In this document: positions 10,281-61,510 of the stretch, one piece after another
How the letters are laid out: each line of letters opens with the position of its first letter
Position numbering within the stretch: the stretch's first letter is position 1
Origin: Parelaphostrongylus tenuis
Lineage: Eukaryota; Nematoda; Chromadorea; Rhabditida; Metastrongylidae
DNA: 64,000 nucleotides
NCBI GenBank assembly: GCA_019055375.1
Contig: JAHQIW010001260.1
Span: forward strand, 166,251-230,250
Direction of reading: 5' to 3'
The notes under the pieces: model-generated
Told to the model about the DNA's origin: nothing
The model's database searches: none
What the model saw: only the letters and a program-made list of their open reading frames with translations
Position numbers and translations under genes: made by a program

Positions 10281-11232
10281 AGATAGCCGATTTGCCAAGC
10301 TTACTTTCAAACTCTTATGTTTTCCATTTCACTTAGCACCTTACCTAGTATGCTTGCTGTGGCTCTGGCTGGCATCATCAAAAAAGCTATTTTTTTGTGT
10401 TTTGTAATATGCAAGAAGATTGCTGCTGTTCAAACGGATTCGTCCTTCTTATGAGGAAACTGGGTCCCTATCTAATCACTTCATGTTTTTGATACGTTCA
10501 CTAATCTTCACTGATGTTTCATCCTAAGTTTGTCAGGTGGTACATCTGATTTCATATTGAACTACCGTACAAGTATCAAGTTCCACTGAATCATATTTTC
10601 TTTCACTGAGTGAATTTTGTATCGACACATTCGCTTCACAAGCGGTCTGAGTGATATATAAGTGCAAGCTTTTCTCCTTTACTGTGGTTTCCCTCACAAA
10701 GAAGCTTTTGCGATTGTCGGTGAAGACTGTATTTTGCAAAACTTCAACCTCTAGAGATCGTCAATATTAAATCGTACACCTCTGTTATTTAGCATGTACT
10801 TGCCCTTTTGACTATGTAAGTTGAAAAATATGTCCTGCATTTTCAACTATATTTGAGAAATAGGGAAATATGGCATCTTTATATTATTAAGCGAATACAA
10901 AGTTGTTATAAATGTTTTATTTCTTCAACATTTTGGCGCACTGGCCTTCTACATGTCTGCTGAGAGTCGATATTCCACAGCCATTCAACATGGCAATCTA
11001 AGCCTTAGAAATTATTCGAGTCTAAGAGATTTCGAGTCGTTTAGAAATCGATTTCGTAATAACTATGCCGGCATTGTTAGATTTTTTCATCTTCTTTTTC
11101 ACAACTTCCTTCGTAATACTCTTCTCTTCTTTGCAGTCAATGGTTTTGCCTATAGGACACTCGAAAGAAGATCCATTAAAGACGAACGGGTCTATAGAAT
11201 CACATTCTGAGGATGATTACCTCTAGCTAAAC
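10281..11232. other. Region downstream of the methyltransferase-like gene
   Basis: An open frame at 10953-11210 (85 codons, rich in R, F and N) has no recognisable motif and is probably chance. No clear AATAAA follows the stop at 10280 within 100 bases. Confidence 0.35.
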
Positions 11233-11355
11233 ATTCGTACGTCTTTTTATACCTTTCCTTCGAGTGCTTTATTAAGACCACGCTCAAATTTTAATAGATT
11301 CTTTCATTATTATATGAGCCAACATGTCATGTGGTCTGGTAAAGGCTCTTGTACA

Positions 11356-11398
11356 GCCCGAGACACGTGTTTCGTCCTTACGGACTCATCAGCCGGGC
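11356..11398 (-). ncRNA. Type I hammerhead ribozyme (HH1), intact
   Basis: Minus strand 5'-3': stem I GCCCGG pairs with the final TCGGGC (one G-U); core CTGATGA; stem II GTCC with GGAC around a GTAA loop; core GAAA; helix III is the palindrome ACACGTGT; cleavage triplet GTC just before TCGGGC. Every invariant core position is present. The very short helix III suggests better cleavage as a dimer, which the tandem 319-nt unit would supply. Confidence 0.87.
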
Positions 11399-11670
11399 AG
11401 AACCCGTCGTCTGTCGATCTTTTCATAGTCAGTTCTCTCGGGAACGTCACACTCCTTATATATAGTTATCGACGACCTACGCTTTACACTCTATGTCAGG
11501 TGAAACATTCACCTAACACAGAGTGTTTTCGCACTCGATTGCTAGCTGGCTGGTATTTCATCATATTATACCTTTCCTTCGAGTGCTTTATTGAGACCAC
11601 GCTCAAATTTCAATAGATCCTTTCATTATTATTTGAGCCAACATGTCATGTGGTCTGGTAAAGGCTCTTG

Positions 11671-11729
11671 TACAGCCCGAGACACGTACTACCCGTTCTG
11701 TAAGGACGAAACACGTGTCTCGGGCTGTA
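11671..11729 (+). ncRNA. Truncated HH1 hammerhead in the inverted arm
   Basis: The plus strand keeps TAAGGACGAAAC, ACACGTGT and TCGGGC but the CTGATGAGTCC half has been replaced at the inversion junction. It cannot fold as a complete ribozyme. Confidence 0.65.
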
Positions 11730-11792
11730 CAAGAGCCTTTGCCAGACCACATGACATGTGGCTCAAATAATAATGAAACGATTCGTACGTCT

Positions 11793-13179: not shown

Positions 13180-14570
13180 TAAACGAATAGTGACAGGAAA
13201 TGTTTGATGGAAATGTGAAGTTGAAGTACTTGAGTTATCGCTGAGTAGATTGCTTTTAAAAGAGGCATTGACTTCATATTTGGTTAAATATGTCTGTAGC
13301 CGGCTGACTGTGTTTGAACAGTACGTGTCCTGAATTATTTTGCAATTCTGGGTTCTTCCCAATGTCAAAGTCAGCGTGTGATATCTGGTCTTCTCGTTTC
13401 TCTCAGGTCGATGAATTCATACTCTGTCTTGTGGTCCACATTATTAGATCCTAAATAGGAGATTCGTATGCAAGTGTACATGTGCTATAGGTATCGATCG
13501 TCACCATAGATTGTTAAGATTTTACCAACTTGTTAAGATTTTAACAATCTATCTCAGCTTTAAGATTCTAGCAGCCTCTCTTTGAGCTCTCTCTAAGTTA
13601 GGCAAATGGAGCTTCTTTCTTCACTGCATTCAGCTTTGGATACTTCGTACAGCTTGCCTAGCCCTGAACGTGGGGCTTGCTATTTAGCGGCAGCTTCCAG
13701 TCTGTTCTGGAGGGACAGGTAACTCATAGAAATAAGGTTGTCACAAATAGGCACCATATAAACTCGAAGCTTAGTGCCTGAATCCATCAATGCTTCGGGA
13801 GAGCATGACCGTTTTTGATCTGTATTCGTGTCCGACATCCACTATATGGAGACATGCCTCATAATCGTGCGAATAACCGAGTAGATATCGTTGTATGAGA
13901 AAAATTCGTGAAGATGATTATCTGTGTGAACTTGTAATTCAGAGCGCTTTCAACAGTTTTTCATAGAGTTCCCTTTTGTCGACTATACATGGAATATCAT
14001 TTTAGAAAAGCTCTTTCAACGCAATGGTGACGATTCCGTAGTGGCTGAGACGGATATTGACGTTGCCAAGCGCTCGACAATGGTACCCGTTTTAATGAAG
14101 CATAAAGTGTGCCAGCTGTATGAAATACATTCGAACAATTATTTAAGCAACAGTCAGTCAGGAAGAACATCTTACGAAATGGGAAGGTTAGAAATTTGTC
14201 AATCGGTAGATTAAGGCTCATCTTGACCTGCCTCATATAAACTACGTCTCCTATATGCAACAGATAACTCACTTGTAGAAAAGTTTTGAAACTGTCAGTT
14301 CTTCGGTGGTTTTTGAAGGCCAATGGGACTTGCATGCTATTTGTCCTTCTCTGGATGATTCTTCTTCATATAATCGCTATGTCCACTCTACGTCCAAATG
14401 CGCAATTATATCGGTGGCTTCTGTAATCAAAAAATCACCTTTCTCAAATCAGTATAATCGAGAGGTGATTTTCACTTGCACACTGTTATGAATTTTACGG
14501 ATCGTCTTACATCGCACATTCATATCTCACGTCATTTTCATATGTTAATGAAATCAGTAAACAGCTCTTA
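13180..14570. other. Non-coding stretch
   Basis: Only a short internal duplication (TTGTTAAGATTTTA- repeated at 13515-13550) is seen. Around 14000-14100 there is partial similarity to the 8330-8440 exon of the methyltransferase-like gene (see the separate entry). Confidence 0.35.
13988..14110 (+). pseudogene. Partial duplicate of the methyltransferase-like exon (8338-8450)
   Basis: The stretch runs AATATCATTTTAGAAAAGCTC, then AATGGTGACGATTCCG, GTGGCTGAGACGGATATTGA, GTTGCCAAGCGCTCGACA and CATAAAGTGTGCCAGCTG. It follows the exon at 8338-8450 almost base for base, including the upstream CATTTTAG acceptor. Changes: KMDIEGAE becomes a T-D-I-D-V-A-K-like reading, and the CAG|GTAAAT donor has become CAGCTGTA. 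So it is a decayed exon copy, evidence of a duplicated neighbour gene. The similarity begins about 50 bases before the exon and fades after it. Confidence 0.7.
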
Positions 14571-14639
14571 ATCTACCTTTATTTCGAGTGTTTTATTGAG
14601 ACCATGCTCAAATTTCAATATATCTCATAATTGTTAATA

Positions 14640-15054
14640 GGATGAGGAGAAAGTTTCCGGAATTAGCTTATAAAAACTTTATTTATGCATCAATTAAGTC
14701 CAAGAAAAAAGACAGTTCAATAGTCAGTGAGTCAATAATTAATAGTCAATAGTTAATAGTCAATAATTTAATATTCGTTGAAGTGATCGTAGACAGCTGT
14801 CTTTCCAACACTTCCTTCGCCCCATGCCTCATTGATTCGACGAACAGTGTCAGCGGCATTTGTGCCCACTTTGTACTCGTGAAGCATCAACAGTCGTTTC
14901 TGTTCGCGGTTCAGTTCCATCTTGCGGCAGTATAGAAGAGTTATATATCAATCGATGCGCAAGAAAGTGAGCTTTCAAACCATGTGAAAATCGCATATAA
15001 AACATGCGAACATGTTAAAGCTATGGGCAAATTCTAGAAACTTTCTCCTCAACC
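14640..15054 (-). mobile_element. Deleted mariner element with TA target duplication
   Basis: Inverted ends GGATGAGGAGAAAGTTTC (left) and its near-exact complement (right) are flanked by TA at 14638-14639 and 15055-15056. Minus-strand ATG at 14920 opens 50 codons starting MELNREQKRLLMLHEYK and including NAADTVRRINEAWGEGSVGK, the first helix-turn-helix of mariner transposases. The D,D34D catalytic domain is deleted. It sits inside the HH1 copy and so is younger than it. Confidence 0.8.
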
Positions 15055-15103
15055 TATTATTTGAGCCAACATGCCATGTGGTGTGGTAATGGGCTCCTGT
15101 ACA

Positions 15104-15146
15104 GCCCGATACACGTGTTTAGACCTTGCAGTCTTGTCAGTCGGGC
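15104..15146 (-). ncRNA. Decayed HH1 hammerhead
   Basis: Stem I (GCCCGA with TCGGGC) and the ACACGTGT helix survive. The core has changed to CTGACAA and TAAA, so activity is not expected. Confidence 0.6.
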
Positions 15147-15326
15147 AGAACCCGTCGTCTTCCAGTCTTTTCAGGCAATCTCTGTAGGTGCTCCAGTCCC
15201 CATACTATTAGCAAAGACGAACGATTTGCACTTTAAGTCAAATGCAATATCACCAAACTTACAGTGTTTTACTCCCTATTGTACCCACAAAGGATTGAGT
15301 AAAAAGACTGAAAGACAACGGGTTCT

Positions 15327-15369
15327 GCCCGACTGACGAGGCTGTGAGGTCGAAGCACGTGTATTGGGC
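15327..15369 (+). ncRNA. Decayed HH1 hammerhead in the inverted arm
   Basis: The plus-strand core CTGACGA is acceptable, but GAAG replaces GAAA and stem II is wobble-rich. Activity doubtful. Confidence 0.55.
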
Positions 15370-15429
15370 TGAACAAGAGCCCATCATTAAACCACAGGAC
15401 ATGTTGGCTCAAATAATAATTATGAGATT

Positions 15430-16939: not shown

Positions 16940-18400
16940 TTTATTGAAACCCGAAAGGAATATTCAACGAGAATAAGGCGTCGAAATGGGTGAGATCTTG
17001 ATGAGAAGAGCTCAACATCTCAAGTACGAATTGGCACATACGAGGAGACATTTCACTATAAACAGATCTATAGTGTATTCAGAAGAGAAATTGCTCTTTG
17101 CTACATACGATGGCAGAAGGGTCGAGCGGCTTACAAAAATTTGGTGGAAAGTAAACGAGAAAGTTTACTTTTTTTACCAAAAGCGTGATGTAGTGCTGAA
17201 TAATCTATGATCACTCAAGTCCTTTAGGCAATCGGATTTTGATTCGGTCGGTTTTCAAGCATAATGTTATGGAATTCATCTTACTTAATGAGGATGTGAA
17301 TATGGTATTCAAAGTGTAGTTTTAGAAAATATTGGAAAGGACCGGAATGTTATGCTAAGACAACCAGATACTACTGTGCAGTTCTTTGATACAATTTCGA
17401 TATCAAAAAAGACCATGAGAGTGCTTCATGGCATCTGATTTTTTCACTAATAGTCTTACATTGCAGAGTTCCATTACAAGGAGAGAAAACATAAGGTTTC
17501 TTTCTTGGTAAAGTAGGCCCTTCGTTTAGTTATTGAAGACGCAAATTCGTCTTAGTGATCACCTAAGAGATTTCACTCTATCAATGTCAGATTTTTCATG
17601 TCAGATGTCAGCAAGTAGTAAACCTCAAATGATATTGTGTCATTAGTCTCTTGAGAGACGTCTTTTCTCTCCTTGCTGGGAATGTTTTTAGTGAGTCGTC
17701 GACATCGGTTTGGCTTTCATCAACCATCAGCACACGATATTGACGTGTACCGATTTTGGACTTTGAACTGATGTGAGACCTCCTTTCGCTTTCTTTGGTT
17801 TACCGCACATCACGATAGTTAACATGGTCAACATTACCGAACACACATGGAAAAGCGAATTTTGAAATATTGATATATCTGACTTAGAAATGAATTCATT
17901 GAGCGAATTGGAGCAATTCACGTAAAACGTGCGAAGAGTCCATTAGTTCACCACTTAGTATGTGCCTGCTTTTGGAAATGAATTGTACCTTAAAGAACGA
18001 TGGGTGATTGTATACTTAGATATCACTACACTTTCATAAACAAACCGTATCTGAAAGAAAACACAGGTTTGAGAAGATTGGACCCCATGCGGACAGCCAT
18101 CAGGACTTCTATGGTGCAATGAGAGATTGGTCTTTGCGGATTCACGACATACCAAACTTTAGATGGACACGAAACGTTTAGATATACGAAGTACCCAAAT
18201 CTTTATAGCCTCAGCTTTTTCTTTAATTCGTTTAGTATATGACGAAAGGACATTCATGTAATTACCGATTTCCCACAGGGCTCAACACGTACGTTACAGT
18301 TCACGTGTGTTCGACAATTATAAGGTGTGGAGACAATTACTTTTAGAGCTCCCAAGTCTTTCCTTTTATTTTATGAATGGAGCTACGATCTCATAAAGTC
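16940..18400. other. Non-coding stretch
   Basis: Open frames (for example 16986-17210, 74 codons) show no motif or splice context. Nothing can be supported. Confidence 0.3.
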
Positions 18401-18419: not shown

Positions 18420-19105
18420 AATTAACAGTTACCAAGATTCTGGTTTTGCATGGCCATAAAATACATAACCGTATTTCTCATCATTTTTGTGATAACAAAA
18501 AAGAAAAACTTTCGAAAAAACTCCTCTCTACTGTCTAGTTGGAAATTTGCAGCAACATGGTATCTGCCTTCGCTGAGGAGAGTGAAGGGTTTTATCACGC
18601 GAGTTTTCAATGAACTATAAAGGCCTTTATTTGTTTTTCCGTCTAGGTGTTCTTTGACGCGAATGTGAAGTGATCTGCCTGTTTCGTCAATATATTCGCC
18701 ACCAGATGTCTTAGAAGAGATAAAGTATATTGTACCTACGCTCGTGCAATCGCCGTCTCTACCGTTGGGACAAATAACGTAGTCCTTTGTATTACATAGA
18801 CGGTCATACAAGCGGTTTCGAACTATTGACGGCGCAATGTTTCAGGAGGGAATTCTAGAATTCCTACAAAATCTTCTAGACCACTGTTTTTTAGACACTT
18901 TCTAATAGCGGTACTGACTTCGTCTGTTATGAAAGGTAGTATAAGAGGTACCTTATTGTTCAGGTGTGGCGCCCTGTTGTTCTCATTGCGAGGCTTTTCG
19001 CTCCCTTTGGGCCTGAGGTTAGTTGCTGATCTTTCTTTGTACCCATTAGAAATGGCTACTTTTCGCGCTCAGTCTAGTAATTCTCTTCCTTCATCGTCCT
19101 TTCAT
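18420..19105 (-). mobile_element. Penelope-like element fragment (RT tail + GIY-YIG), minus copy
   Basis: Minus frames from 19105 down: SARKVAISNGYKE linker, VSTAIRKCLKN, then at 18811-18650 MYDRLCNTKD...CPNGRDGDCTSVGTIYFIS, GGEYIDETGRSLHIRVKEHLDG. These are the Cys cluster and GIY-YIG endonuclease module of Penelope-like elements (YIG reads YID here, probably a mutation). It is then frame-shifted and truncated. It is joined head-to-head to the next copy. Confidence 0.75.
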
Positions 19106-19109
19106 AGCA

Positions 19110-19910
19110 GACGAAGTCAACACTGCTATTAGTAAGTGTCTAAATAACAGTGGTCCAAAAGATCTTCTAGGAATTCTAGAAATTCCTCCTACAACATTCG
19201 TCGTCAATTAGTTTGAAACCGCTTGTATGACCGTCCATGTAATACAGAGACTGCGTTATTTGTCTCAACGGTAGAGACGGCGATTGCATGAGCGTATGTA
19301 CAACATACCTTACCTCTTGTAAGACGTGTGGTGGCGAATATATTGGCGAAACAGGCAGACCACCTCACATCCGCATTAAAGAACATCTAGACGGAAAAAC
19401 AAATAAAGACCCAAGTAAACCTCTAGGTACACACGGGATACAAAGACACAACGTTGGCGACTTCGAGGTAGTAGTCAAAATCCTAGGGCACGAACCAAAA
19501 CATCGGCGCGAAAGATCCTAGAAGCATTCTGGATAAATTCCAGAAATCCGCAACTTAAGAGAAAGGGAGAATTCCTTAACATAACCAACCACAAGGCACC
19601 TTACCTCAGATTGATTTTCTAGAATGGGCCTTAGTTGACACCTATCCATAGTTTAACCTAGTGACATGGGGGCGGGTTCGTACGTCACCCTAGAGCTAAC
19701 CACATAGGTAGTCCCTAAACTAGATTGCACGGTGAGTGGCTTTTCCTGAATCAATCATCGCTTGTCGACACCCTAGATTTTCAATTTACTTTCCTTCTTT
19801 TTCTCACGGTATATAGTCATATAAATGAAGCTACAAAGAATAATACGTTCAAGCTTTGAAGAAGGCGTATTTGCCGAAACGTCAGCCACAAGCAACCGCG
19901 AAAACCCATT
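19110..19910 (+). mobile_element. Penelope-like element fragment (GIY-YIG and 3' end), plus copy
   Basis: The plus frame 19288-19520 reads TSCKTCGGEYIGETGRPPHI and RIKEHLDGKTNKDP, a GIY-YIG module with the YIG and Arg/Glu positions in place. It continues out of frame as ARKILEAFWI. The 3' region to about 19900 contains GAAGAAGGCG...GCCGAAACGTCAGC, also found at the end of the 61.4 kb copy. The sequence around 19122-19200 mirrors 18840-18920. Confidence 0.75.
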
Positions 19911-24959: not shown

Positions 24960-26245
24960 TATTCAAGATAATTCCTTACAATTTACATATACACTGTGTC
25001 AACTTTTCTTCAACTCAACAGTCGTATTTCAAACTAAGTTCCGCGTTTTTCTCTTCACTTTAGTAACATCAAAAGGATGCAGTTGGCAGTCACACAAAAT
25101 AGGAGGATAAATGAAACTGATGCGAGGATGACACTTTTGTTTTCTAAGCACTCGAGCAACATTGCCGTAATGGAGGCCATTTAGCTATAAAGTAGGTATT
25201 TTGTAAAAACACAGTGAAAATATCAAAAGTTTATTTGACCAATAGTCAAAAGATGAATCGAAACCTGTTGTTTTTTGTTCGAGGTATTGATAATTTATGA
25301 AAATGGGCTGATTTTTGAGTGAACAATCATCGGTCGTTCCGTAAGGTGCAACTCATTTTCACAAGCAAGCACATATTGAGTAGTGAACTAATGGACTCTC
25401 CGCATCACTTTTACGTGAGTTGCACAACTTCGCTCGTTTAATTGCACTCCAATTCAAAGTGCATAGTTTTTCAGAATTGACTTTGCCATGTGTGTTCGGT
25501 GATTTTGATCATGACAGTTTCGTTATGTGCATTAAAGAAGAAGAACAGAAGGAGGCATCAGTATAAGTCAATCTCCAGATCAAAACACAGCACGCGTGAG
25601 TTTTGTGCGGTAAATAATTTGGTGATTGCTACCCCGTTAACTTCCTCAACGCCTCAACGACGACGTTCTTTGGATAAGGATTAAATTTTCTTGAGAGATT
25701 TGCGGTGAAAAATCCATTTACTTTTGCAGTTTCCTAACTCAGGAAAATAGTTTTTGCAGTACCAAGGCCTTTTATGCGTTCGAAAGGCTAACATGGCCTC
25801 CCAGTGATCAGCCGAAACCTTAAAATCGTTTTATGATGAACTGCCATCAAAACACCTTTTGTGCGTATAACGTGTTAGATAATGAAGTTATTAGTTAGAC
25901 GGGGTCCGTGATGTCGCTCTCATCACTCTAGCCTATCTCTCATTAATGGAACACTTCCATACTTCCTTGTAACGTACTAAAATCTGCTAGTTCGTATCGG
26001 ATTTTTTGAGCTTGCATCATTACAGTCACCCATCCCTTTGCGTAATACAGAACGATAACAATTTCGAGACTACCGTGGGTGATGAGCATGTTCACACCGT
26101 CGCTAAAGGAGTGGCTAATTAAGCAGTTCTTATTGATAACATGGATTCAGTATCTGTTAGCGTGACGGGGTTCAATGCCAATTTGTGCTTATCAAGTCAA
26201 TCCGATGACGGTTGGTTGCTAAAAAATCAGTTTTTCACATCACCG
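24960..26245. other. Non-coding stretch with one basic ORF
   Basis: The only coding-like item is 25490-25684; see that entry. The rest is AT-rich and featureless. Confidence 0.3.
25490..25684 (+). CDS. Small hypothetical ORF, hydrophobic N-terminus and basic tail
   Basis: 64 codons: a short hydrophobic start (SVILIMTVSLCAL), then LKKKNRRRHQYKS and PQRRRSLDKD. It looks like a membrane or signal segment with a basic tail, but no splice context or family is recognised. Confidence 0.2.
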   Translation: MCSVILIMTVSLCALKKKNRRRHQYKSISRSKHSTREFCAVNNLVIATPLTSSTPQRRRSLDKD

Positions 26246-29049: not shown

Positions 29050-31710
29050 CCGCCGCCCCGTTGATCGTCGAGTGACCCGAGCGGGCACCAACAACACCTC
29101 CTATTTTTCCTATAGCGTGCAAGAGTAGCCCTGTAGGACCTCTTCACTCATCAAGTATCATATCTTTCTTCTATGGTTTTCGCACAGAAACCGGACCAGC
29201 GGGTCGGTGGTCTTTCTGTAGAGCGCTTGATATTCCGGAAAATCCAGTCGGTAAAGGCTGTCGTCCATCGGTTGTCGTTAAAGCGCATCACGTGTCCAAA
29301 GCACCTTATTTTCGACATCCTGGCGTTTAGAACGACGTCTTTGACCTTCGATCGTTGACGTAGGCCGGAACTTGGAATCCTTTCTCTCATTTGCGAGATA
29401 CGGGATCTTCCTACATCGACCTTTCGACTGCGCGTTCGATAACGCCAAGTGATTTTTCATCCTGCTTACTTAGCTACCACGCTTCAGCTGCATATGCTAG
29501 GGCAGGGATAATCGTCGAGTCGAAAAGGTGGGCACGGAGTAGGATTGTTCTCCGCCCTCTTCACTACGTTCTCGATGCTCTCTAACGCTACCAAAGCTAC
29601 ACATTTCCTTCTGCTCAACTCTGGAGCTAGGTCGTTCATCATATTGATTTCACGACCTAGATAGCCATAACTGGAGCATTCGAAATTTTCGTTCCGTTGA
29701 GTGTGAATGCGGCATTGACACCCATGCGTTTCTCATGAACATCGTTTTTAGTTATTTAGTTGAAGACGAGTCTCTCCACAGCGTTGTTGAAATTGGTCAA
29801 CATTCGTCCCGCTCTGTTGATGTTTGCTGTTATGAGGACTGTATCACCAGTAAAGCGAAGATGGTTTAATTGTCGACTGTCAATTTTCACTCGCATGTCG
29901 TCTCATTCTAGTGTTCGCATGACGTCTTGGAGGGTGACAGTGAATAATTCTGGCAAAATTGTATCGCCTTGTCGAACCTTTCTTCTTACGTCGATGGTGA
30001 TATTGTTGTAGAATGGAGATATCTTGGACCTGAAATCTTTATATAGCTCATGAAGAGTCATTATGTATTGAGTAGGGATGCCCTGGTTATTCAGAGCCTC
30101 TATAACCGCTTCTGTTTCTACTGAATCAAAGGCTTTCTTCATATCGATGAAAGTGAAATAGAGCGCATGTTTGTGCTCTCATAAAACATCAATGAGTCTT
30201 GTAATCATGAGGATGTGGTCTATCATACTAAATCCTTTTCGGAACCCTGCTCATTCGCATGGCTGCCCTATGTCTAGTGTTCTCTCAATCCTGATTGGGT
30301 TTGAAAAGTTTATAGACATCGGACAGCAAGCAGATTGGGCTATAATTGGCTATGTCGTGGAGGTCTCAGTTTTTGACAACAACAAGGTTTTGCTGAATTT
30401 CCATTCATTGGGAACCTTGCAATCTGGCAGGTAGTGAGGGAAGAGCCAAACTAGGCTGTTGATGAGAACTGGCGGTAAGTTCTTCAGGTATGCTGGTCTA
30501 ATCCTGCTCGGACCGGGTGTTGTTCCGTTGTTCACCGACGATTCGCATGTCGAGTTTTGGATGGGAGGATTAGTGGAACGACAGGTACATGTTCCTTCAA
30601 TTTTATGACGGTAAGAGAATATGGCTAGCGAAGAGATTCGACTAGTACTCATGGATGATTTCCTCCATTGCCCAAGCTGTAAGTGTCACGTCAGGGCATC
30701 GGAGTGTATCATCTTGGCCTCATAATTGGCGATACCTCGCTGGGCTTTGCGAATGCTTTTTCCAGCTTCTGCAGCTTCTGCCATAACTGCTGCTCGTCTC
30801 TCTTTGAGATCTTCTTTCATCGCTATTTGCAGCGTTGCGCAAGTTCGCACGTCAGGTTTTGTTGCGTGCAGCTCGTGCGATTCCACGCTGACGTATCAGC
30901 TCGAGTGTCTGCGAAGACAAGCGTCTCTTCGTGACCTTAGGACTCTCGGCTTTCGTAGCGCTAACGTGCAGATATTCAACGACTAGTCGTAATCTCGTCG
31001 ATGTTGTCGATAACGATATTTTCCCAAGAGCCGACTAATGATTTGAATACATCCCAATTTATGGTAGTTCTGGGACATTCGCTGTTTGAATTTAGCAACA
31101 TTTCTCACCTCTCCGCTTAAAAACGGAACGTTTGCGCGAAGGAGGCGATGGTCTGATCTCGTGTAGAACTTAAGACAACAGCGACATCGGTCAGGCAAAA
31201 TCTTCGATCTACTAAGATGTGGTCTATTTCGTTATGGTACTCTTCATTGAGAGACTCCCAAGTGAGTCGTCATAATAAACTCAGATACCCTCTCAGACTG
31301 TTCATTCCATTTTAGCTCGTGGGTCCCAATATGGCGTTCTTCAGACGTCCTTCTAGCTCCAGTTTTCGCGTTAAAATCTCCAACAATGACCTTGAAGAAT
31401 GTATGATCTTCTCTGAAGAATTTTTCGAGGTCCATATAGAACGCTTCGACTACGTCTTCGTCATAGCTTGATGTTGGTGCGTATGCGACGAAGATGGTCA
31501 AAGCCGGCATAGAACCACATCGTTTCAACCGTAATCGTCCGATACGGATTGTTAGTTGTTCAAACGAATCAATGTTCACGGTCAAATGCAATTTGACGAG
31601 GACGCCAACGCTACCTACACCTCTACTATCGCATGCTCCAAAAAACAGCTCTTCACCGGTGTCATAAATACCGTGAAAAGGATGGCGGAAGAAACGCAGT
31701 GTCGAAACAA
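29050..31710 (-). mobile_element. RTE non-LTR retrotransposon, nearly full length, dead
   Basis: Minus strand, 5' to 3': endonuclease 31700-31000 (DTGEELFFGACDSRG, ALTIFVAYAPTS, KVIVGDFNAKTG, SDHRLLRA); linker 30890-30690; RT palm from about 30650 (GPSRIRPAYLKNLPP, LPDCKVPNEWK, MKKAFDSVETEAVIEALNNQ); C-terminal domain 29390-29151 (FGHVMRFNDNRW, RPPTRW). The RT active site that should be FADD reads FTGD near 29850, so it is catalytically dead. It has several stops and shifts. The N-terminal endonuclease start is missing. The 3' end has CACCTGTCACC-type short repeats. Confidence 0.88.
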
Positions 31711-31719
31711 ATGAGGAAA

Positions 31720-33320
31720 GGTAGTCAAAAAGCTATGGAATGTTAGACAAATGAGCAATTTTTGCTATAATTCTAACGAAGTGCAATGTAAAGCACGAAG
31801 CTGATCACTAGCAGCGCTTTCGCAACAGACGAGGAATTCAAAACTTCCATAGTGGTGTTTTGCTAAAACTACGTATTACCGCCCGTCCTAGGAATAAGAT
31901 ATTAACAAAGTGACAAATCTCTCTCTTGAAGTGCAGGCCCCTTCCCATGGTGACCACAAATGTGGAGCTGTTTCTTGGCCAACATCCAAAACCTCCCTTG
32001 CTCGACGCCGATCCATGAGAAAACCAGTAATTTGGACTGAAATCTCATATGCACAGTGCGTCATTGGAACGCGAACCAGCGAACACATCACGACCCAAAC
32101 TCCACGATACTTCTTGCTCCACACGTATAAGGTCAGAACAGTCGTTCAGACGACGAACTCTACGCTCTTGTTAAGGTTGGTTGCGCATCAAATTCTACAC
32201 AATAAACAACAGCCCTCAAGAACGAGAACGAGGAGTGATGCGCGTCTATTAGATGACAAAATTTCTCTTAGTGGAAATTTTTGTCACGACTTATTGGTTG
32301 CATTGGTTTTATTGTACAAAATCACGACGTCACAACACAGACGGAAAAACAGTGAGATAGAGAATAAAATTTTCATCAGTTGTAAATAATTGATAGGTCT
32401 TCACTACTGATTGTTTTCCAGGGTCTCGTCAAATCATCTCCGTTCCAATTACAATCGTTTACCTAGTCTATGAACATAGTCACTGCATTCTGTGCAGTCT
32501 TAAATTTTCAGCCAAAGATACGGCAGATATTACCGACCTTAGTGAGAACATATTTGACTCAGAGAGTGTATATACCTCACAACGATGATCCATAAAAATG
32601 CCTATTACATTTGTCTTGTTGCTTCATGAAGTTATTTTAAAGATGTTTTCAAATCACAACTGAAATACGAGGATTCGTTCAACTCACCGAAAGGTGATCT
32701 GCGCTACGGTAACGATCAGTAAAAGAAAAGAGATGAAACCAAAGTACAAGGTTTAAAGTGATGTTTGGCGAAATTGCGTTCATATTTATTCAAATTTCTC
32801 TGTTGCATGTACGGTTTTCCCTCATCAGTGTAGAGTCAGATATTCTTTGTGACATACTTTATCCAACATTTCAGTTATCCAAACGCAACAGCTGAGGAGA
32901 AAACTCATCAAATATGTGAATTGTGCAGGACTTATCTCACTATTAATTTTCTCATTCGAGTTCATACCAACATTTTCTGAACAGAGATTTCCTTCGGTGC
33001 ACACCATTGGGTCCTGACGACTGATTCGATGTATTTATGGAAGTTCAATAAACGGGTGATGAATTAGGCAAAAGTGTCGAGCTCTCGCCAGCACTAGTTT
33101 TTTTGCATAGACAAAGAAGACTTCTCGATGTCGTAAATTTCAAACATTGTCGGATCTAAAAGTTCAGTTTTTTGCGTGGTTAAACAAGCTGCGAAATCAT
33201 TCCAAAGTTGAGCATAATAACACGTTTGCAGGAACGCGAGTTAAACATAACTTACATGTAAAGTTAGTATAGTGATCCATGTACAGGAAGCACAGAATTT
33301 CTGATAAACTGTATTTCTGC
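31720..33320. other. Region with one long but unrecognised open frame
   Basis: Plus 31910-32389 is open for 159 codons, and the opposite strand is open too at 32124-31888. Composition (R, S, T, H rich) and lack of motifs suggest repeat DNA rather than a gene. The rest is featureless. Confidence 0.3.
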
Positions 33321-40550: not shown

Positions 40551-42390
40551 GTATCACCTGTATCACCTGTCTTCCCGTTGATCGCTGAGTGACTCGAGCG
40601 GGCAAAAGCAACACATACATTTTTTCCTATCGTGTGCAAGAGTAGCCCAGTGAATCCTCCTCGCTCAAGGGATTCACTGGTCATCGTATCTTTCTACTAG
40701 TCTTTTCGTGAAATCGGACCATCGGTTCGGTGGTCTTCCTGTAGAGCGCTTGATGTTCCGAGGCATCGAGTCGGTAACTGCTCTCGTCCATCGGTTGTCG
40801 TTATAGCGCATCACATGTCCGGCCCAAGTTATTTTCGATATGCTGGCGTGTAGAGCGGCGTCTTGAATTTTGGTCGCTGACGTAGGCCCAACTAGGGCCC
40901 TTTCTCTCAGTTGCCAGATACGGAATACTCCTAGCATCGACCTTTCGACTGCGCGTTCAATAACGCCAAGTGATCTTTCATCCTGCTTACGTAGCGACCA
41001 GGTTTCTGATGAATACGTTAGGGCAGGGATAATCGTCGAGTCGAAAAGGTGGGCACGGAGTGGGATGTTCTTCGTCCTTTTCACTACATCCTCGATGCTC
41101 TCAAACGCTCCCCAAGCCTCTCGTTTCCTCCTGCTTCAACTCTGGAGCTAGGTCGTTCATCATATTGAATTTCACGACCTAGATAGACGTAACTGGAGCA
41201 TTCGGAAGTTTTCGTTCCGTTGAGTGTGAATGGGGCATTCGAAACCCATCCGTACCTCATAAACATCGTTTTCGTTAGATTTGATTGAAGCCAATCCTTC
41301 CATGGTTGTTGTCGGAACCGGTCTACATTCCTTCTCCTTGGCTGACGCTTGGTGTTATGAGGACGATATCACGAGCAAAGCGAAGACGGCTTATTGTTGA
41401 CCGTCAATTTTCACTCCCATATCGTCCCATTCTAATGTTCGCTTGACAATTTGGAGGGTGGCAGTGATTAATTTTGACGAAAGTGTATCGCCTTGTCAAA
41501 CATCTCTTCTTACGTCAATATTGATATGTTCAGAGTGGCAGTATTTTGGTCTGAAATCTTTACATAGCCCACGAAGTATCGTTACGTACCGAGTAGAGAC
41601 GCCCTGGTTATCTAGAGCCTCTATAACCGCTTCTATTTCCGCTGAATCAAAGGTTTTCTTTAGACTCAATGAAAGTGAGACAGAGTGATTGTTTGTACTC
41701 TCGTGAAACTTCAATGAGTCTTGTGATCGTGTGTATGTCGTCTATGGTACTAAATTCTTTTCAAACCGTGCTTGCGCACATGGCTGCCCTTCGTCCAGCG
41801 TTCTGTCAATCCTGTTTAGGATGACTCAAGTGAAAGTTTATAGACAACGTACAGCAAGCAGATTGGGCGATACTGCCTATGTCGTAAAGCTCTCCCTTTT
41901 TTAACGACAACACGGTTTTGCTGATTTTTCAATGATTGGGAACTCTTGATGGATTCTGACAGGTAGCGTGGAGAGCCGAGCCAGGGTGTTGATGAGAACT
42001 GGTGGTAGGTTCTCAGGTGTTATGATCTAAACGTGTCTGGAACGGATGTTGTTCTGTTCTTCACCGACAATATAGCATGTCGGATTTAGAAGGAAAACCG
42101 GTGCAACGGCAGATTCCTTCTCCTTCAATTTATATGACGGTAAGAGGACATGGCTAGCGAAGAGATCCGAAGTAGTACTGGTGGATCATTCCCTCCATTA
42201 CCCTTCTGGAGCTGCAAGTGTCTCATCTGGGTGTCGGAGTGCAATCATCTCGTTCTTGTAATTGGCGAAGCCTCGCTGGGCTTTGCGAATGCTCTTCCCA
42301 GCTTCTGCCACGACTGCTGTTCGTCTCTCTTAAAGCCTGTGCACAAAGACGAAAGATCCGCCCAGAGCAGATCCTCCACTAAACCTGCTG
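40545..42390 (-). mobile_element. RTE non-LTR retrotransposon, 5'-truncated, dead
   Basis: Minus strand: RT palm region about 42390-41490 (KKTFDSAEIEAVIEALDNQG near 41640), APFTLNGTKTSECSSYVYLG near 41200, LRAHLFDSTIIPALTYSSETW near 41050, AGHVMRYNDNRWTRAV and RPPNRWSDF near 40750. The FADD motif reads FARD near 41375, so it is inactive. The 3' end carries ATCACCTGT repeated three times at 40545-40572. Same family as the 29.05 kb copy. Confidence 0.85.
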
Positions 42391-48021: not shown

Positions 48022-51000
48022 TCACTTCTTCCAATGACGTTCTGAAAAAATGAGCACTTTTGAAAACAATGTAGACCGTCTCAAATTTACGTGAAGAGCG
48101 AAACTTACTGAATATTGATCTTCGGCCAAATACTGGTTTCTGTCGAATTTCTACGTTCACCTCGTCTTTTTCTCTTCGTGAATCAATTTCTAACTGGGGT
48201 GGTTTACCAGCTGCAGGTTTTGCTTCAATCATCGGACGATCTATTTTGTTTCTAGTTTGTTCACTTGGAGACGGATCTTTACAGACTGATACTTCAATCG
48301 TCTTTTTCTTTGCTGTTTTTTGTGGTTTCGTTGTTTTTGTGCTTACTTCCACGTCCTTTGCGCTGCTCTGCGTTATGTCCGCCTCGGTTTTCTTTGCTTT
48401 TTTCATGACCGTAGTTTCGTGTAAGTCAATCTCAACAGTACCTGCTACGCTGATCGTCATCGCGTCACTGGCCTGAAAAGCATGGAACTACATTGATAAG
48501 GCATGCAACCAATTTTCTTAGTGACTGAAGCTCTTAGTCGGAGCCATTGCTAGTGTTTCGTGTTATATAGTATCGCTCACAGCAAATGTCACGTCACCAG
48601 CTTTCTGTTCATCCACACCTTCACGTTTATCTGCATCGAGATTGGCCAAGGTTTCTAATTGTTCCTTTATCTGAAACTAACTTCTAAACTGAGCCGACGG
48701 GTATCTGCACATTTTTGATTATATTCAATAACCACTCGGTGAAATTTTGATTATTGATTAGGAGGTAAGAACGAATCCGTACGTCATTATCGGTAAGTCA
48801 CCTGCTCAGTTATTCCATCACAAAATATATGCTTGTACTGCAAACGAATGCCTTCATTAGCAGATGTTTGAGGACGTTATCATGAAGTAGTTTTTTCTGT
48901 GCATGGGAAAGTGGCAGCTACCAAAGCCAAGACCCTTCCTTGACGAACTAATTGATATACAGTACTGTTGCCACTGGATACGCGCTGTCTAGCCAGACGA
49001 TTTTGAGTGACAGAGTTTGAAAATTTCGACAGAACAATATCAGTTAAAGATGCAGCCGTTCTAGTTGTATTTTGTTAACTTTTAAGTGAGAAATATCTGA
49101 GGATGTAAACCCTCCAAATTTTAAAAAGTTACAGAGGACAATCCTTTTGATATACTCTGATGATGATATATCATGTTTTGAGCTGTTAAGGTCTAAGCGC
49201 TAGACAGGCGCCTGTTTCGTCCTACCTGGATTACTCAGTAGCACAGTTCCTTGGTCTCATTTCAACAGTCATAAGCTAGGCTGCTAGTCTCTACAGTGTC
49301 AGGTGATTCTATCACCTGCTTTGCGAAGATTTATTGCTCGGTGTCGATTCATTCATAGAGGAGCTTAGCCTCTAGGGATTGGCTGATCCGAGGAACTGTG
49401 CTACTGAGTTCAAGTAGTACGATACACTCGCCTGTTTAGTACCTAGACCTTAGCGTCTTAAAACATGCTATATCATTATCAGAGTATCATCGTTCTGAGC
49501 GCGGTCTATGAAAGAGTGGTCGAATGTAGTGGTATAAAAATCACTCTAATGTCTGAATTGGAACTTTCGCAGCTTTGATAGATATCAAATCGTTAACTCC
49601 AAAAAATTATATATACTACTGCACAACTTTTTTTTTACGAACAAAGCATAAAAGACGAAGCTGTTAGCGTTGGCCAGTCTTTAAGGTATCCGTCTTGTAT
49701 TCAACTTCACTGAGTATCGTCAGAGGTGATTGAATGTGTATGTGGTCATTGAAATGAATTTCTGTGTCACACCGAAGTGTCAGTATTGCTTTTTTTCTGA
49801 CAGGTTTGGCACCAATTTGCTGACTTTGGGGGTACAAGGCCTGATGAGATCGAGGTAGCATGGAAGCAACAATAAGAGCATGTAAATAGTACGTCTGTGC
49901 CTTCTCTATGTAAGAAGTTGTCTCTTGCGGAGCACTTTGAACCATTCAGCCAACCGCACCTCTTACGGAGAGACAGACACCACATCAATACTCCCTAAAA
50001 TCTGATCAATTTCTTTGAAATTTACAAGCGTTGAAGAAATACGTGGACTCATAGGATAAGTGGAATAAGCATGCTCAAATATGATCAACTTTACGTATTA
50101 TGTAGAGCTCTGTGGTCCATATTTTCATCACATTCAAGACATTGAAAAAAAAACGCAAAGCAGACCATTCAGAAAAAAACGATAACGCAAACCGTTAGGG
50201 CAGAGGAGTGTAGGAGAACCTACCGAAGCAAAATTAGGCCGCTTATCAGGATCTTTGCACCACAGTTTCTCATTGACAAATTGCACAATAACCTCAGGCG
50301 TGTTGGGTGGAAATTTGTTCACTTTACCTTCGACAATCTAAATTTTATGACTAATATTCAAACACTTAGAAAGAAAATAATTTCAAACTCTATTACGCTG
50401 CATAATCATCAGAACGATAAATTATGGGTGACAAAATCGTCCAAAACACTGTGTCCTCCTTTTTATAAGAACGAGTCGTTTAGAAAAAAAAGGAGGAAGT
50501 ATAAACTAACCAGCTTCTTGACGATGGTGTTTTTCATATCATCATATGGTCCGATTCCGGCGAATATCTCATATATTAACACCTGAACGATGTTCTAGCC
50601 GCTTTGTGTTAACATTTAAACTGCTCGCTGAATATGTCATATTGCTTGCTACTTATATCAGTCTAGTGCGAGACCCGTCTAGGATCAGTTTGCGGCCTTG
50701 AAACCATAAAAACTGGTGAAAACCTGTGACGTAAATTTGGGAACGCCCTAGCATTATTACACCACAATATCAATAGCCATCAATCACATGCGAAAGGATA
50801 CGAGAAATCATCAAGCTTCAGCCGCATCAACAAGCAGTCCCAAGATTTCCGCTGGAGAAGGATGTGAAAAAGCGAATCCAGAAAAATGCTGAGGCCGCAT
50901 ATTGTAAAAATACATTTAATAGTAGGCTTCATTGGGGTGTATCCGATTGCTAAGGCTCTCATTGGAATCCCAGTACAAGTGCTCCTTTTGTAGTTGAAAA

Positions 51001-54000
51001 GCTCGGTGTTAATCAATTCCTGAGGGATGGACCATGTATTCGTATTCAATTTTTGCTCCTTTGCGGTGGTTGAATGCATATTTGGCCTTCACAATGACTC
51101 GCGCGTGGCCCACCGATGTATCACAGTTGGTGCTGCTACGTTTCCAGTCAAGTGTGTTACCAATTGACCAATCCCGGGTGATGACATGCTTTGTGAGCTG
51201 TTAGCGTTCGGTCGAACCATCGAGCATTTGTGCAATGCAGATCCATTCTAGCCACTGCACCACATGCTCTTTAGTTGTTCCATTTATACCTACATTGAGC
51301 ACTATGAGCAACACTGCAAAAAACAGTGAGAGAAATGATTTATCTGATAAGGATATGACATATTTTTGAGCCATAGGTCTAGTGCTATATAGGCGCCTAT
51401 TTCGTCCTATTGGGACTCATCAGTAGCACCCTGCCTCGGTTCCGTCGATCCCTTGAGGTGAAATAATCCTCTAAAGGAACCGACGCCGAGTAAAATTAAA
51501 CACCCAAAGTAGGATGATGGTATTACCTGACTTTGTGGTGACCGGCAGTCGAGCTTACGGCTTTAAAATGAACTATACTTTGCTGTCGACTGCTTTTTTA
51601 CAGACCCGCTCAAAATGATTTAATCTGATAAGGATATGACATATTTTGAGCCATAGGTCTAGTGCTATATAGGCGCCTATTTTTTTTAATTTTACTCGGC
51701 GTCGGTTCCTTTAGAGGATTATTTCACCTCAAGGGATCGACGGGACCGAGGAGGGTGCTACTGATGAGTCCCAATAGGACGAAATAGGCGCCTATAATAG
51801 CACTAGACCTATGGCTCAAAATATGTCATATCCTTATCAGATTAAATCATTTTGAGCGGGTCTGTAAAAAAGCAGTCGACAGCAGAAGTGAGAGAAAATT
51901 AAAACATCAGGCTATATGTGTTACTTGTCCATGAAGCGCTCATTCAAGTGAGAATAGTTTAAGGATGGACTGAATTTTTACATACTACGGAGGCAAATGA
52001 AATTTGACGATCATGAAAGCGGTCAAAGCAGTTAGCTAGTACATCAATATAAATTGTTTTTAGTATTGGAAGAATTTTTTCGATGTGCTCCTTATGTGCC
52101 GGAAGACTGTCTTTTTTACTGATGGAAGATATCATAGTCGATGTATGACATCTACGAAGCTGTAGCCACTGAGCTTTAAATTTCACTATTTTTAACAATT
52201 TTTATTTGTATGTGTCTTACATGGTTCTTTGTGGTTCCATATGTGAATTAATACCATGTATTAGGTTGAGGAAAAACTTCCTCAACAAGCGCTTGAAATT
52301 CAGAGCTTGTACATTAATTTAGTCAAAACAACAATAATTAGTCTTCAAAATAAAGGTCGTCAATGTCCACGATCTTCTGTTAGTGATCTGCAAGCCTCCG
52401 GATCTGCTCGAAATACCATTTCTCAAGCTTCGAATTAAAAAACTCTTCACATGACTCTTCAGATTAGTCAAATCTTACAACTCGGCGCCTACGCAGAAAA
52501 TGTTCCGTTAAGCGGAACTGGACCATAATCGGACACGCAGCATTTCTGAGATACCCACGAATTTATAATAGCCGATACTATGTGAAACAAATACAAAATT
52601 AATTCTTCGCGGGTGTTAAGGATTTTATTCCTCAAATAGTAAGCAGTCCAACTGCCATTGTTTTTTCCCTATTGAGCAAGTTCTGTGTCCTATCTTCTGA
52701 TATCTTCGTACTACGTGTGAAGTGAATAAAGCAAATAGATTAAGAGTTACTCCAAAGGTGTAGACGTCAGTCTTCTGTGTAAACGTATATGTCTGAATGC
52801 TTTCCGGTGCCATCCACTTTATAGGCATTTTCTGAGCCGTCTTCATTTTATAGGTGGCTCCGGGTCGTGATAGGCCAAAGTCAGATATTTTTACCTAAAC
52901 TGCAGTATAAGGCTGGTCTATAATTCTCCTCAAAAAGCTACTAGGGAAAAACGATACCGTATTATTTCTGTCGTAAAGACAGTTTCTAGCAGCAAGATCT
53001 CTATGCAGGATATTTGCTTTGTGAATATAATCCATTCCCGTTGCGACACCAATAGTCATGGCCAGTCGTTCATCCTTCGTAATCTTTGCATGTTTCCGCT
53101 TTAGGTAAACGTCTAGGGCAATACCTGATACAAAAATATCCTATTACCACTCAATTCTCTTAGTTATATAAGAACATAATAACACCACTCAAATCTCTTA
53201 GTTATATAAGAACATAATAACACTGCGAAAAAAGCAGTGAAAATACTGTAATTTCGAACTATTATTGCTATCAAAAATGATTTTACTATGTACCAATATG
53301 TGCAGTAATCATAAGCGATCTTGAGCCACCGCAACCACTCCAAATTAATAAAGGGTAAGCGGTGAAAGTTAAGCAAAAGTCATCTTGTAATTGTCTTAAG
53401 GATTCATGGACGCGTGGATTCAATGTCACGTCACTTTCAACAAATAGGAGCCTATGCTCAATTTGGGATACCCCCATAATATGGCGTGTGACCATACCTT
53501 TCTAATAGGATAGCAACAGTATCCCCGTGTAACTTTCTCACAAGAAACGCCTAGGCTAAATGGCCTCATATAAAGATATATAATGGCTTCACATCCTTCA
53601 AACAAGTAAAAAACATCAAGGCTCTGACATGCCACAAAGATAAATTGGAATTTTGCTGGTTCTCGTATCGTCTACTTCGTGATTAATGTAATACAGGTCT
53701 TCCTGATGAGCAGTTTGCTTATCACTGTGACCAAAATTGGGCTCACGAAAACCGATTTGTCGCAAAATTCTAGAACGATTAGAGTTAGGATCACCTGATA
53801 CGTATTCCAGAAGGATGTATAACGGATGATCGATGAGTACAACACCAACTAAGCCGACGACGTTAGTGTGGTGAAGACAGCGCATGATTCGAACCTCCTT
53901 CATGATTTCTCTAATTACCTCTCGTGTCATCATATTCGTCATCGTTAACTGAAAATGGACATATCTTGTCATTATTATTTGAGCCAACATATCATGTGGT

Positions 54001-59479: not shown

Positions 59480-61510
59480 AATACTTACAACAAGCGAAAA
59501 GCCTTCAATGAAGTAAGAATAAGGCTATCAGTTAGTGATAAAGGTGGAGAATTTGTTGTGATTTCTCGACAGTTAGATATCGCAATAACGAATAAGCATC
59601 TCGAAGATGCTTCGCTTTACGGATCATCTTCTGTAAAGGATATAAAAAAGGCAAAACCGTAAATTAAACAATAAGTGGGTCCGTACGGCAGAAGCGGCAG
59701 GCTTAAGACCATCTATCATTTCACAATTGAAAATCCAGTCACCAACATGTCCTGTCTTATACTTACTTATGAAAACACATAAGTTACTATCCACTGATGA
59801 TCTAATGTCTAACGATCCATCTATATTCAAAGTTAGACCTATCATCAGCTGCGTAGGCGGACCGACGGATAGGATAGCATGGTTTTTAACGTTAATAACA
59901 TCCCAGTTGCTAGGGCACATTCCAGCCCATCTGACGAACACTCAGATGTTCCTGGATCGTCTACGTAACGTGAATCCTAACAGCGCGTACGTAATGGAGT
60001 CATTTGACGTCATTGCTTTATACACCAACGTATCGAATGACTCCGCATTGAAAGCCACACATGAGCTTCTGATACAACACCAGGGAGCTGTAAACATGTA
60101 TGGCTTGTCGATTGAGCAGTTCATGGTCCTATTAAAAGAGTGCCTGTACTGCTAAATTATCAGATGGTCCGGGAATTATTTCGCACAAATCAGAGGACTG
60201 GCAATGGGGCAGCGACTGGCACCTAGCCTAGCGATTGCCTTTATGTCGAAAGTGGAAGCACCAGTGATGGATCTCCGGCCATTACTCTACTGTAGGTATA
60301 TAGATGACTGTTTGGTTATCTGTTTCACTCAAAAGGAGCTAGATAATTGCTTTAGATTGTTGAATGAACAGTCATAGTATATAAAGTTCACCCGTGAGAT
60401 ACCAAAAGATCATTGGCTTTCTTTCTTGAACGTGCAAATAAGCTTAAGCAAGAGCGGCTACGTCACAAAGTGGTACCGGAAGCCAAGTAGTAAAAATATT
60501 CTGGTTCACTATCTCTCTTCTCATCCATCACATACGAAAAAGGCGCTGGTAAAGAACATGTTTCGAACAGCAGCCAGCGTATGTACTAGGGAGGAGCAGA
60601 GAGTAGAATCCGTGAAATTGGCTCGGGAAATAGCCATTTCTAATGGATACGGATTTGTAGCACCTCGGCTTAGGTTTAGAGAAAATGGTACGCCTCCGAA
60701 AGAAAATTCAAATGAAAAGAAAATCCCGTTCATCCTCCCGTTCTTTTCAAAGCGGGTTTAGAGCTATCGGTGGCTCTTATTGAAATACCACCGAATACTC
60801 TAAAACGCCAACTAGTTCGCAACCGCTTATATGACCGTCTCTGTATGATGAAAGATTGCAAAATATGTCCCAACGGCAGAGACGGTGATTGCATGAGCAT
60901 AGGTACAGTCTACCTAATCTCTTGCAAAGCGTGTGGTGATAAATATATAGGCGAAATGGGTAGGCGGCTCTACGCACGCATAAAAGAACACTTAGCTGAC
61001 AAGCGTCTTAATAGACGGAACACCCCGCTAGGGACGCATAGAGCACAGAAGCACAACGGAGTTGATTTTGAAATCGAAGTCACCATCCTTGCGCAGGAAT
61101 AGAAAACATCAGCGCGAAAGCTTCTTGGAGCACTCTGGATTAATACCACCAATCCAACTATGAACCGCACGGAGGAATGCCTCGTAATCACACGTGATTT
61201 TAGTCAGTATATAAGACTGTTATTTTGATGGATTAAGTGCATTACGAGCCTATGTGATTTCCTTGCGGTGGTCTCCACTTGAATCATTCGGTGGGACACA
61301 TATAAAAAGCGGTGAGTATGTTGAGAGTTGATTTTGTGCTTGATGCGATTGAGATCTAGGTCTGGTGAATTTTTCTGAGGGAGTATTTGAGGTGTTTGGC
61401 CTATTGGATTGCGAACAATTTGACCTTTCCAGGCTCTGAAGAAGGCGAACTGCCGAAACGTCAGCTGTGAAATAAAGTTTATGTAACACCTCGTGTTTTT
61501 GCTTAAAAAA
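59480..61510 (+). mobile_element. Penelope-like element with RT and GIY-YIG, nearly complete but frame-broken
   Basis: Plus strand: SDKGGEFVVISRQLD near 59535; PVLYLLMKTHKLLS near 59745; KVRPIISCVGGPTDRIAWF near 59830; VMESFDVIALYTNVSND near 59990; GLAMGQRLAPSLAI near 60190; active site YCRYIDDCLVI near 60290 (intact YIDD); LSFLNVQ and TKWYRKPSSKNILV near 60430-60500; Cys cluster CPNGRDGDC near 60870; GIY-YIG module GTVYLISCKACGDKYIG and RIKEHLAD near 60900-60990; then an ARKLLGALWI tail. Breaks: frameshift near 60153, stop near 60378, shifts near 60760 and 61100. The N-terminus is lost. The 3' region to 61510 holds the GAAGAAGGCG...GCCGAAACGTCAGC motif and AATAAA. Confidence 0.88.
61436..61466 (+). 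other. Hammerhead-like core at the Penelope-like 3' end
   Basis: CTGAAGA, a hairpin AGGC-GAACT-GCC, then GAAAC fits the CUGANGA / stem II / GAAA order. No stem I partner or cleavage triplet could be placed. The 19850 copy has TTGAAGA in the same place. Confidence 0.4.

Follow-up and report, generated by a model that had tools for sequence, protein, structure and literature searches.

RESULTS

A type I hammerhead ribozyme lies in a short inverted insertion

The 64-kb stretch of Parelaphostrongylus tenuis DNA analysed here (64,000 nt, hereafter the window) contains a type I hammerhead ribozyme at 11398-11356 on the minus strand, within a copy designated E1 (locus L001 in the genome mapping). 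The initial annotation had described a complete type I hammerhead with all its core elements on this strand, and the sequence bears this out: stem I GCCCGG/UCGGGC, CUGAUGA, stem II GUCC/GGAC, GAAA and GUC preceding the cut are all present. A covariance-model check with Rfam Hammerhead_1 (RF00163) gave 38.0 bits against a cut-off of 34 (E 5.1e-6, computed for both strands of 64 kb), the model being matched over its full length. No other match to any Rfam family in the window reached that family's cut-off.

The ribozyme had also been placed in a 319-nt tandem unit. The repeat spacing of 319 is real, with 11242-11368 and 11561-11687 showing 95% identity, but the direct portion amounts to only about 1.4 units, and a third piece, at 11697-11780, is inverted. 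E1 is a single 536-bp insertion (11245-11780) made up of about 1.4 units and this inverted arm, and it is bounded by a perfect 12-nt target duplication, ATTCGTACGTCT. The initial annotation had recorded neither the inverted arm and target duplication nor the defined ends. The features of E1 are as follows, where p is the position on the unit counted from the first base after the ribozyme cut.

11356..11398, minus strand: type I hammerhead ribozyme of E1 (Rfam RF00163, 38.0 bits)
11245..11780, minus strand: retrozyme copy E1, family 1, 319-nt unit, head-to-head inverted, 536 bp (from repeats, boundaries and unit map)
11233..11244, unstranded: left target-site duplication of E1, ATTCGTACGTCT (flank comparison)
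11781..11792, unstranded: right target-site duplication of E1, ATTCGTACGTCT (flank comparison)
11247..11687, minus strand: E1 long arm of 441 nt, going round the 319-nt unit more than once, with its outer end at p117 (distal site)
11697..11780, plus strand: E1 inverted short arm; outer end p62 (proximal site)

Four further copies of two families occur in the window

The window holds four copies besides E1, falling into two families: E2 belongs to family 2, and self-comparison revealed E3 and E4 as relatives of family 1 and E5 as a relative of family 2. E2, a second hammerhead element at 51336-51886 and of another family than E1, had been missed by the initial annotation. Its hammerhead scored 29.5 bits, short of the type I cut-off, unlike that of E1 at 38.0.

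51336..51886, minus strand: retrozyme copy E2, family 2, 280-nt unit, head-to-head inverted (locus L031)
51382..51429, minus strand: E2 hammerhead, cleavage triplet AUA in our own reading (29.5 bits, below the cut-off of 34)
51755..51803, plus strand: second E2 hammerhead, in the inverted arm, with one extra A at the cleavage site
51325..51335, unstranded: left target-site duplication of E2, 11 nt, AGTGAGAGAAA
51887..51897, unstranded: right target-site duplication of E2, AGTGAGAGAAA
53963..54284, minus strand: retrozyme copy E3, family-1 relative, decayed ribozyme, inverted
53950-53962 and 54285-54297: target duplication of E3, TGAAAATGGACAT
14566..14634, minus strand: retrozyme copy E4 (family-1 relative), left piece, distal end
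15055..15420, unstranded: remainder of retrozyme copy E4, inverted arms 15055-15180 and 15293-15418
49148..49523, unstranded: retrozyme copy E5, family-2 relative, inverted, decayed

All five copies, E1 to E5, are head-to-head inverted. One end lies at about p52-64 in each of them and the other at p88-120 in four, the alignment of E5 stopping at p82. A target duplication was present in three of the five (E1, E2 and E3); for E4 and E5 it was looked for at the flanks and none was found.

Several other features were noted in the window. E4 is interrupted at 14635-15054 by an element of roughly 420 bp with 38-nt inverted ends (84% complementary) beside TA bases, which we take to be a Tc1/mariner-type MITE. 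Exons of a protein kinase gene (PF07714) lie at 52628-54017 on the minus strand, with E3 some 27 nt away from the kinase-matching stretch of one exon and two 38-nt tandem copies (97%) between kinase exons at 53146-53223; a Pfam search of ten window frames (E up to 0.01) returned kinase matches only. Another dispersed repeat (17799-18070 and 25261-25536, opposite orientation, 74% identical) contained no hammerhead core by pattern scan. LINE-type reverse transcriptase remains occur at 29154-31732 and 40677-41741, where the RVT_1 piece at 29906-30178 is presumably RTE-like and the other pieces were recognized by resemblance only.

Both families are dispersed through the genome

The assembly searched comprises 481.5 Mb in 5105 contigs. 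With E1 as query, at least 239 genome matches were found (40 of 4051 candidates scored), and one family-2 unit as query gave at least 211 (40 of 1742 candidates scored). The Rfam hammerhead model had at least 31 matches in the genome, at least 20 of them above the cut-off (74 of 119,811 candidates scored), and E1 itself was not among the 31 listed. The same model had no match in 14 control genomes.

Mapping of 80 loci (L001-L080) gave 65 insertions, among them E1 and E2; 28 belong to family 1 and 37 to family 2, and older relatives inside the mapped loci were left out of the counts. Fifteen loci were dropped as repeats or as not clearly mapped: L021 runs off its locus; L023, L032, L038, L039, L043-L046, L050, L055 and L056 are copies already counted as L011, L042, L040, L049 or L036; and L063, L064 and L068 have the same arms and flanks as L058. 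This last insertion occurs with identical flanks on C4926, C3537 (twice) and C1553, as duplicated segments or uncollapsed haplotypes.

The results showed that 47 of the 65 mapped copies are head-to-head inverted and 18 are one-armed. Because the family-1 query contained the inverted arm, whereas family 2 was searched with one unit, family 2 gives the less biased share of inverted copies (28/37).

The two ends of an inverted insertion usually start at different fixed sites

In the inverted copies, both outer ends read inward in the antisense direction, the arrangement that priming of a cDNA by each target 3′ end would produce. Two clusters per family, whose limits were chosen after inspection of the data, accounted for 107 of 112 reverse-transcription starts: in family 1 a proximal cluster at p55-71 (median 63) and a distal one at p105-123 (median 113), and in family 2 a proximal cluster at p35-55 (median 42) and a distal one at p84-96 (median 90). 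A proximal end was paired with a distal end in 40 of the 47 inverted copies; the seven exceptions comprised one distal-distal copy, one proximal-proximal copy and five with an end elsewhere. Both ends fell within the clusters in 42 copies, 40 of them mixed (binomial test, run on 40/43, 3e-9). The inner arm ends lay 16-149 nt apart on the unit, and in none of the 47 copies within 10 nt. In the predicted circular folds of both families, judged by eye, the proximal sites would lie in the apical part of a hairpin and the distal sites at the next hairpin.

Exact flanking repeats of at least 8 nt were found in 55/65 copies compared with 3/195 swapped-flank controls, and repeats of at least 10 nt in 50/65 compared with 1/195; in this comparison boundaries were movable by 16 nt, and the controls paired left and right flanks of different copies. 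The target duplications of the retrozymes were mostly 10-15 nt; the one listed for L004 falls inside the element.

Distal-first priming was also considered. The distal arm was longer in 12 of 15 family-1 pairs, yet in only 14 of 25 family-2 pairs, and no claim is made.

Penelope-like elements of the same genome insert with the same layout

The window also holds remains of Penelope-like elements (PLEs), as follows.

59646..61099, plus strand: PLE remains, with reverse transcriptase pieces at 59646-60152 and 60378-60758 and a GIY-YIG endonuclease piece at 60716-61099
61436..61462, plus strand: pattern-level match to a minimal hammerhead core, downstream of the PLE ORF
18425..19518, unstranded: second PLE remnant, itself head-to-head inverted (18622-18936 versus 19098-19411)

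The GIY-YIG piece scored 21.8 bits, just under the Pfam cut-off of 22.6, and the reverse transcriptase pieces were named from their relatives. The best-scoring named relatives of the window PLE piece came from Angiostrongylus, at 66-77% identity across the nine top rows, of which one is unnamed; lower-scoring ones belong to Necator, Parelaphostrongylus, Nippostrongylus, Heligmosomoides and Ancylostoma. These relatives suggest a strongylid nematode as host, the protein being that of a mobile element. A sequence comparison of the piece with PDB chains found nothing at E up to 1. Rfam returned no hammerhead match on the minimal core at E up to 10, and the minimal hammerhead pattern was present at 10 of 12 PLE ends read in the genome.

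All 150 PLE candidates scored, out of 6054, were at least 90% identical to the window piece, and 14 of these 150 had an open frame of exactly 893 aa. Some of the scored PLEs stood in tandem at 2984-2985 nt and some formed head-to-head pairs. The PLE looks young and abundant in this genome.

Six head-to-head PLE inserts were examined, a set outside which the pairs on C4864, C2049 and C1472 lie. In all six, one end was short and the other carried a tail of about 40 nt. In the five inserts with a clear duplication, the ends lay 48-61 and 102-118 nt after the ribozyme cut. Three of these duplications were 12 nt and exact, and two (C406 and C4780) were 16 nt with one mismatch; the end distances of C406 and C4780 are approximate because their 16-nt duplications reach into the element. 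The PLE end distances resemble those of the retrozymes. Between the 319- and 280-nt units and the window PLE remnants, no sequence likeness was detectable. A UCG after C-rich bases occurs near the distal start in the anole RNA, the PLE and both retrozyme units, and is suggestive only.

cDNA arms run across the cleavage site and often beyond one unit

The ribozyme cleavage site was crossed by 110 of the 112 cDNA arms, and 76 arms were longer than one unit, the longest reaching 7.1 units, indicating that the template was either a circular RNA or an uncut multimer. Circular RNA may be the intermediate, although an uncut multimer could also explain most of the arm observations.

Copy L054 has a long arm of 1560 nt in which no base difference was found between passes (0/3520 comparisons) and one position varied by indel. 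Compared with the partner arm, 5 of 244 positions differed, three of them common family polymorphisms, and the two arms were discordant at 3/3 common polymorphic sites, that is, they are of different haplotypes. The long arm looks like several turns of one circle, and its partner like a copy of a different RNA. L080 was also considered as a two-template copy and is not used as one, five of its seven arm differences lying at p93-104, beyond the start site.

At the three common polymorphic sites of family 2, arms of the same copy were discordant in 7/71 comparisons versus 968/1931 between copies. The contrast was weaker at the common polymorphic sites of family 1, with 5/21 versus 194/469. Overall differences in family 2 were 0.99% within the same arm, 1.32% between opposite arms and 2.11% between copies, and in family 1 they were 2.98%, 3.21% and 3.81%, respectively. 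Within-copy differences in family 1 nearly equal those between copies, so that single-circle templates are not evident in this family. Among the passes there was no clear excess of substitutions or indels at the cleavage junction that would mark a ligation scar; the extra A at the E2 cleavage site is one case in about 128 passes.

The ribozyme is maintained and the units are probably non-coding

The search for further genomic copies proposed in the initial annotation yielded many of them, and the core letters CUGAUGA...GAAA occurred with correct spacing in one pass or more of 28/28 family-1 and 37/37 family-2 mapped copies, a count that scores letters and spacing alone and not stems. Passes were identical over the whole motif in 39/59 cases in family 1 and 88/108 in family 2. 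In an alignment of nine diverged family-1 hammerheads, 92.6% of pair cells held standard pairs (0/500 shuffles as high), and the covariation score exceeded that of all 500 shuffles; this set includes two pairs of arms from the same copy (E4a/E4b and L028b1/L028b2), and E3, L011b1, L007b2, the family-2 sequences and other partial ones were left out. The second pair of stem II was UA in four sequences, AU in three, GC in one and GU in one. Two pairs changed on both sides, a number equalled in 98/500 shuffles. Judged from its sequence, the ribozyme would be expected to cleave itself.

The units are 319 nt (family 1) and 280 nt (family 2) long, inside the retrozyme range of about 150-450 nt. Both have a GC content of 0.44, and their circular folds had z values of -5.5 and -5.0 against 100 shuffles. 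The longest stop-free run on the circle in the sense direction was 51 aa in both units. In the antisense direction it was 47 aa in family 2 and 129 aa in family 1, where the 95% value of shuffled units is 116.

11227-11613, plus strand: 129-aa stop-free frame, antisense to the ribozyme, through E1

An antisense run of at least 120 aa was found in 11 of the 28 family-1 copies, and the 129-aa frame had no Pfam match at E up to 1. The units are likely, but not proven, to be non-coding.

DISCUSSION

We interpret E1 and its relatives as nematode non-autonomous non-LTR retrozymes inserted by PLE machinery, and put the probability of this reading at roughly 0.8. The insertions have defined ends, consistent arm directions, target duplications, arms that cross the cleavage site and a PLE-like layout, and a PLE protein would be the insertion agent. 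The initial annotation had proposed a nematode retrozyme-like family moved by an outside reverse transcriptase; this is still the best reading, and the insertion signature now allows the enzyme to be named, probably as that of a Penelope-like element.

In the mechanism proposed, a retrozyme copy would be transcribed and its hammerheads would cut the RNA to unit-length pieces, which would then be closed into circles. A Penelope-like protein of the same genome would bind the retrozyme RNA just downstream of the ribozyme and cut both target strands with a stagger of about 10-15 nt. Each target 3′ end would prime a cDNA inside the RNA, one at the proximal site, about 35-71 nt after the ribozyme cut, and the other at the distal site, about 84-123 nt after it. 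Both cDNAs would run antisense round the RNA, often for more than one turn, and their free ends would be joined head-to-head. In a wider sense, animal retrozymes may be circular-RNA satellites of Penelope, both inserting by two-ended target-primed reverse transcription in which the target strands prime at different fixed sites (proximal and distal) beside the ribozyme, an extension towards which we lean slightly. Two-site, two-ended priming would explain why Penelope inserts have inverted ends and a tail on one side.

The biochemistry of a PLE bears on this mechanism. Purified anole PLE protein (Poseidon) cuts and extends both strands in vitro, and it begins reverse transcription next to the hammerhead, at a pair of adjacent internal sites whose positions define the tail; a start-site difference between the strands was not reported in vitro (PMC11167929). 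Equal use of the sites by both strands in vitro is no contradiction, because the rule observed here concerns the pairing within one insertion. RNA-seq reads neither start nor end at the hammerhead cut (PMC11167929). In the same work, insertion in vitro was unaffected by hammerhead mutations and used mainly uncut RNA, implying that ribozyme processing may not be needed for insertion.

Other origins of these copies were weighed against insertion by PLE machinery. One is that the retrozymes were mobilized by a LINE of the same genome and owe their 5′ inversions to ordinary twin priming. A LINE-type reverse transcriptase remnant does lie in the window (RVT_1 at 29906-30178), and LINE inserts can carry 5′ inversions and 10-15-nt duplications. 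However, under twin priming one 3′ end should be fixed and the inner priming point should vary, whereas both outer ends are fixed and different in 40/47 copies, and the PLE inserts of the same genome have the same layout, which makes a LINE an unlikely agent. That PLE inserts share the end layout and the hammerhead core would also suit copies that are solo pLTRs or deletion derivatives of a PLE and not a separate element. Against such a derivation, which we consider very unlikely, the units had no sequence match to the PLE remnants of the window, with which the comparison was made, and the retrozyme hammerhead differs by eye from the minimal PLE core in its longer stem I and looped stem III.

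The head-to-head arms might alternatively arise by fold-back self-priming of the first cDNA, as discussed for the same layout of Adineta Penelope in the accessible part of PMC3846280. Arms of the same copy usually share alleles (7/71 discordant in family 2), as a copied arm would. Fold-back, however, predicts an identical start site for both arms, while 40/47 copies end at the other site, and the arms of L054 are of different haplotypes. The separation of the inner arm ends (16-149 nt, within 10 nt in 0/47) and the difference between the outer ends exclude fold-back copying as a general route, and as an account of these arms it is highly improbable. Least probable is that the copies are tandem satellite DNA spread by DNA recombination with the ribozyme as a passenger: an array of about 7 units in L042 and several neighbouring matches spaced about 323 nt apart on C885 and C4968 have this appearance, but dispersed copies with exact target duplications, fixed ends and maintained ribozyme pairing speak against it.

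Insertion by PLE machinery bears on the question of what moves animal retrozymes, for which PLEs have been proposed from co-occurrence and shared hammerheads (PMC7229834, PMC7761336). A PLE as copier of retrozymes was formerly only suspected, and the insertion ends now point to Penelope. Because the insertions carry a readable signature, the question of the mover can be tested in any genome by end mapping, and the pairing rule also bears on Penelope insertion itself. The new part is the proximal/distal pairing within single insertions, which was not found in the available portions of PMC3846280 or PMC11167929. Literature searches, as far as the texts retrieved extend, returned nothing beyond an unrelated mention for retrozymes in nematodes and no report of head-to-head retrozymes.

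Among known systems, the plant LTR retrozymes (Cervera 2016, PMC4918200) are alike in being non-autonomous and ribozyme-processed, with a circular RNA model. As described in the accessible part of that paper, they have a type III hammerhead, LTRs and 4-bp duplications, whereas the elements here have a type I hammerhead and duplications of mostly 10-15 nt; the same part of the paper gives 15-bp duplications at Nematostella repeats.

Adineta Penelope, in the sections of PMC3846280 available, inserts with inverted pLTRs, mostly head-to-head, with an optional short tail on one and with target duplications. The retrozymes are like PLEs in the head-to-head insert with a tail on one end only (40/47 inverted retrozyme copies; 6/6 PLE inserts). 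Unlike PLEs, their units contain no reverse transcriptase or GIY-YIG frame, and their hammerhead is canonical where the PLE form is minimal. Lacking such a frame and any match to the PLE remnants, the retrozyme inserts like a PLE and is not filed as one.

The closest likeness is to the metazoan non-LTR retrozymes (Cervera and de la Pena 2020, PMC7229834), for which PLE mobilization is a strong candidate only, in the part of the paper accessible. Features shared with that description are the type I hammerhead, a unit of a few hundred nt, tandem copies, low GC, strongly structured RNA, target duplications of more than 4 bp and co-occurrence with PLEs. The retrozymes there are tandem repeats, unlike those found here, and head-to-head copies or paired fixed ends are not mentioned in the accessible text; the host groups it names omit nematodes, in a list that closes with 'among others'. 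The E1 family belongs, as a nematode representative, to the metazoan non-LTR retrozymes and inserts like a Penelope element.
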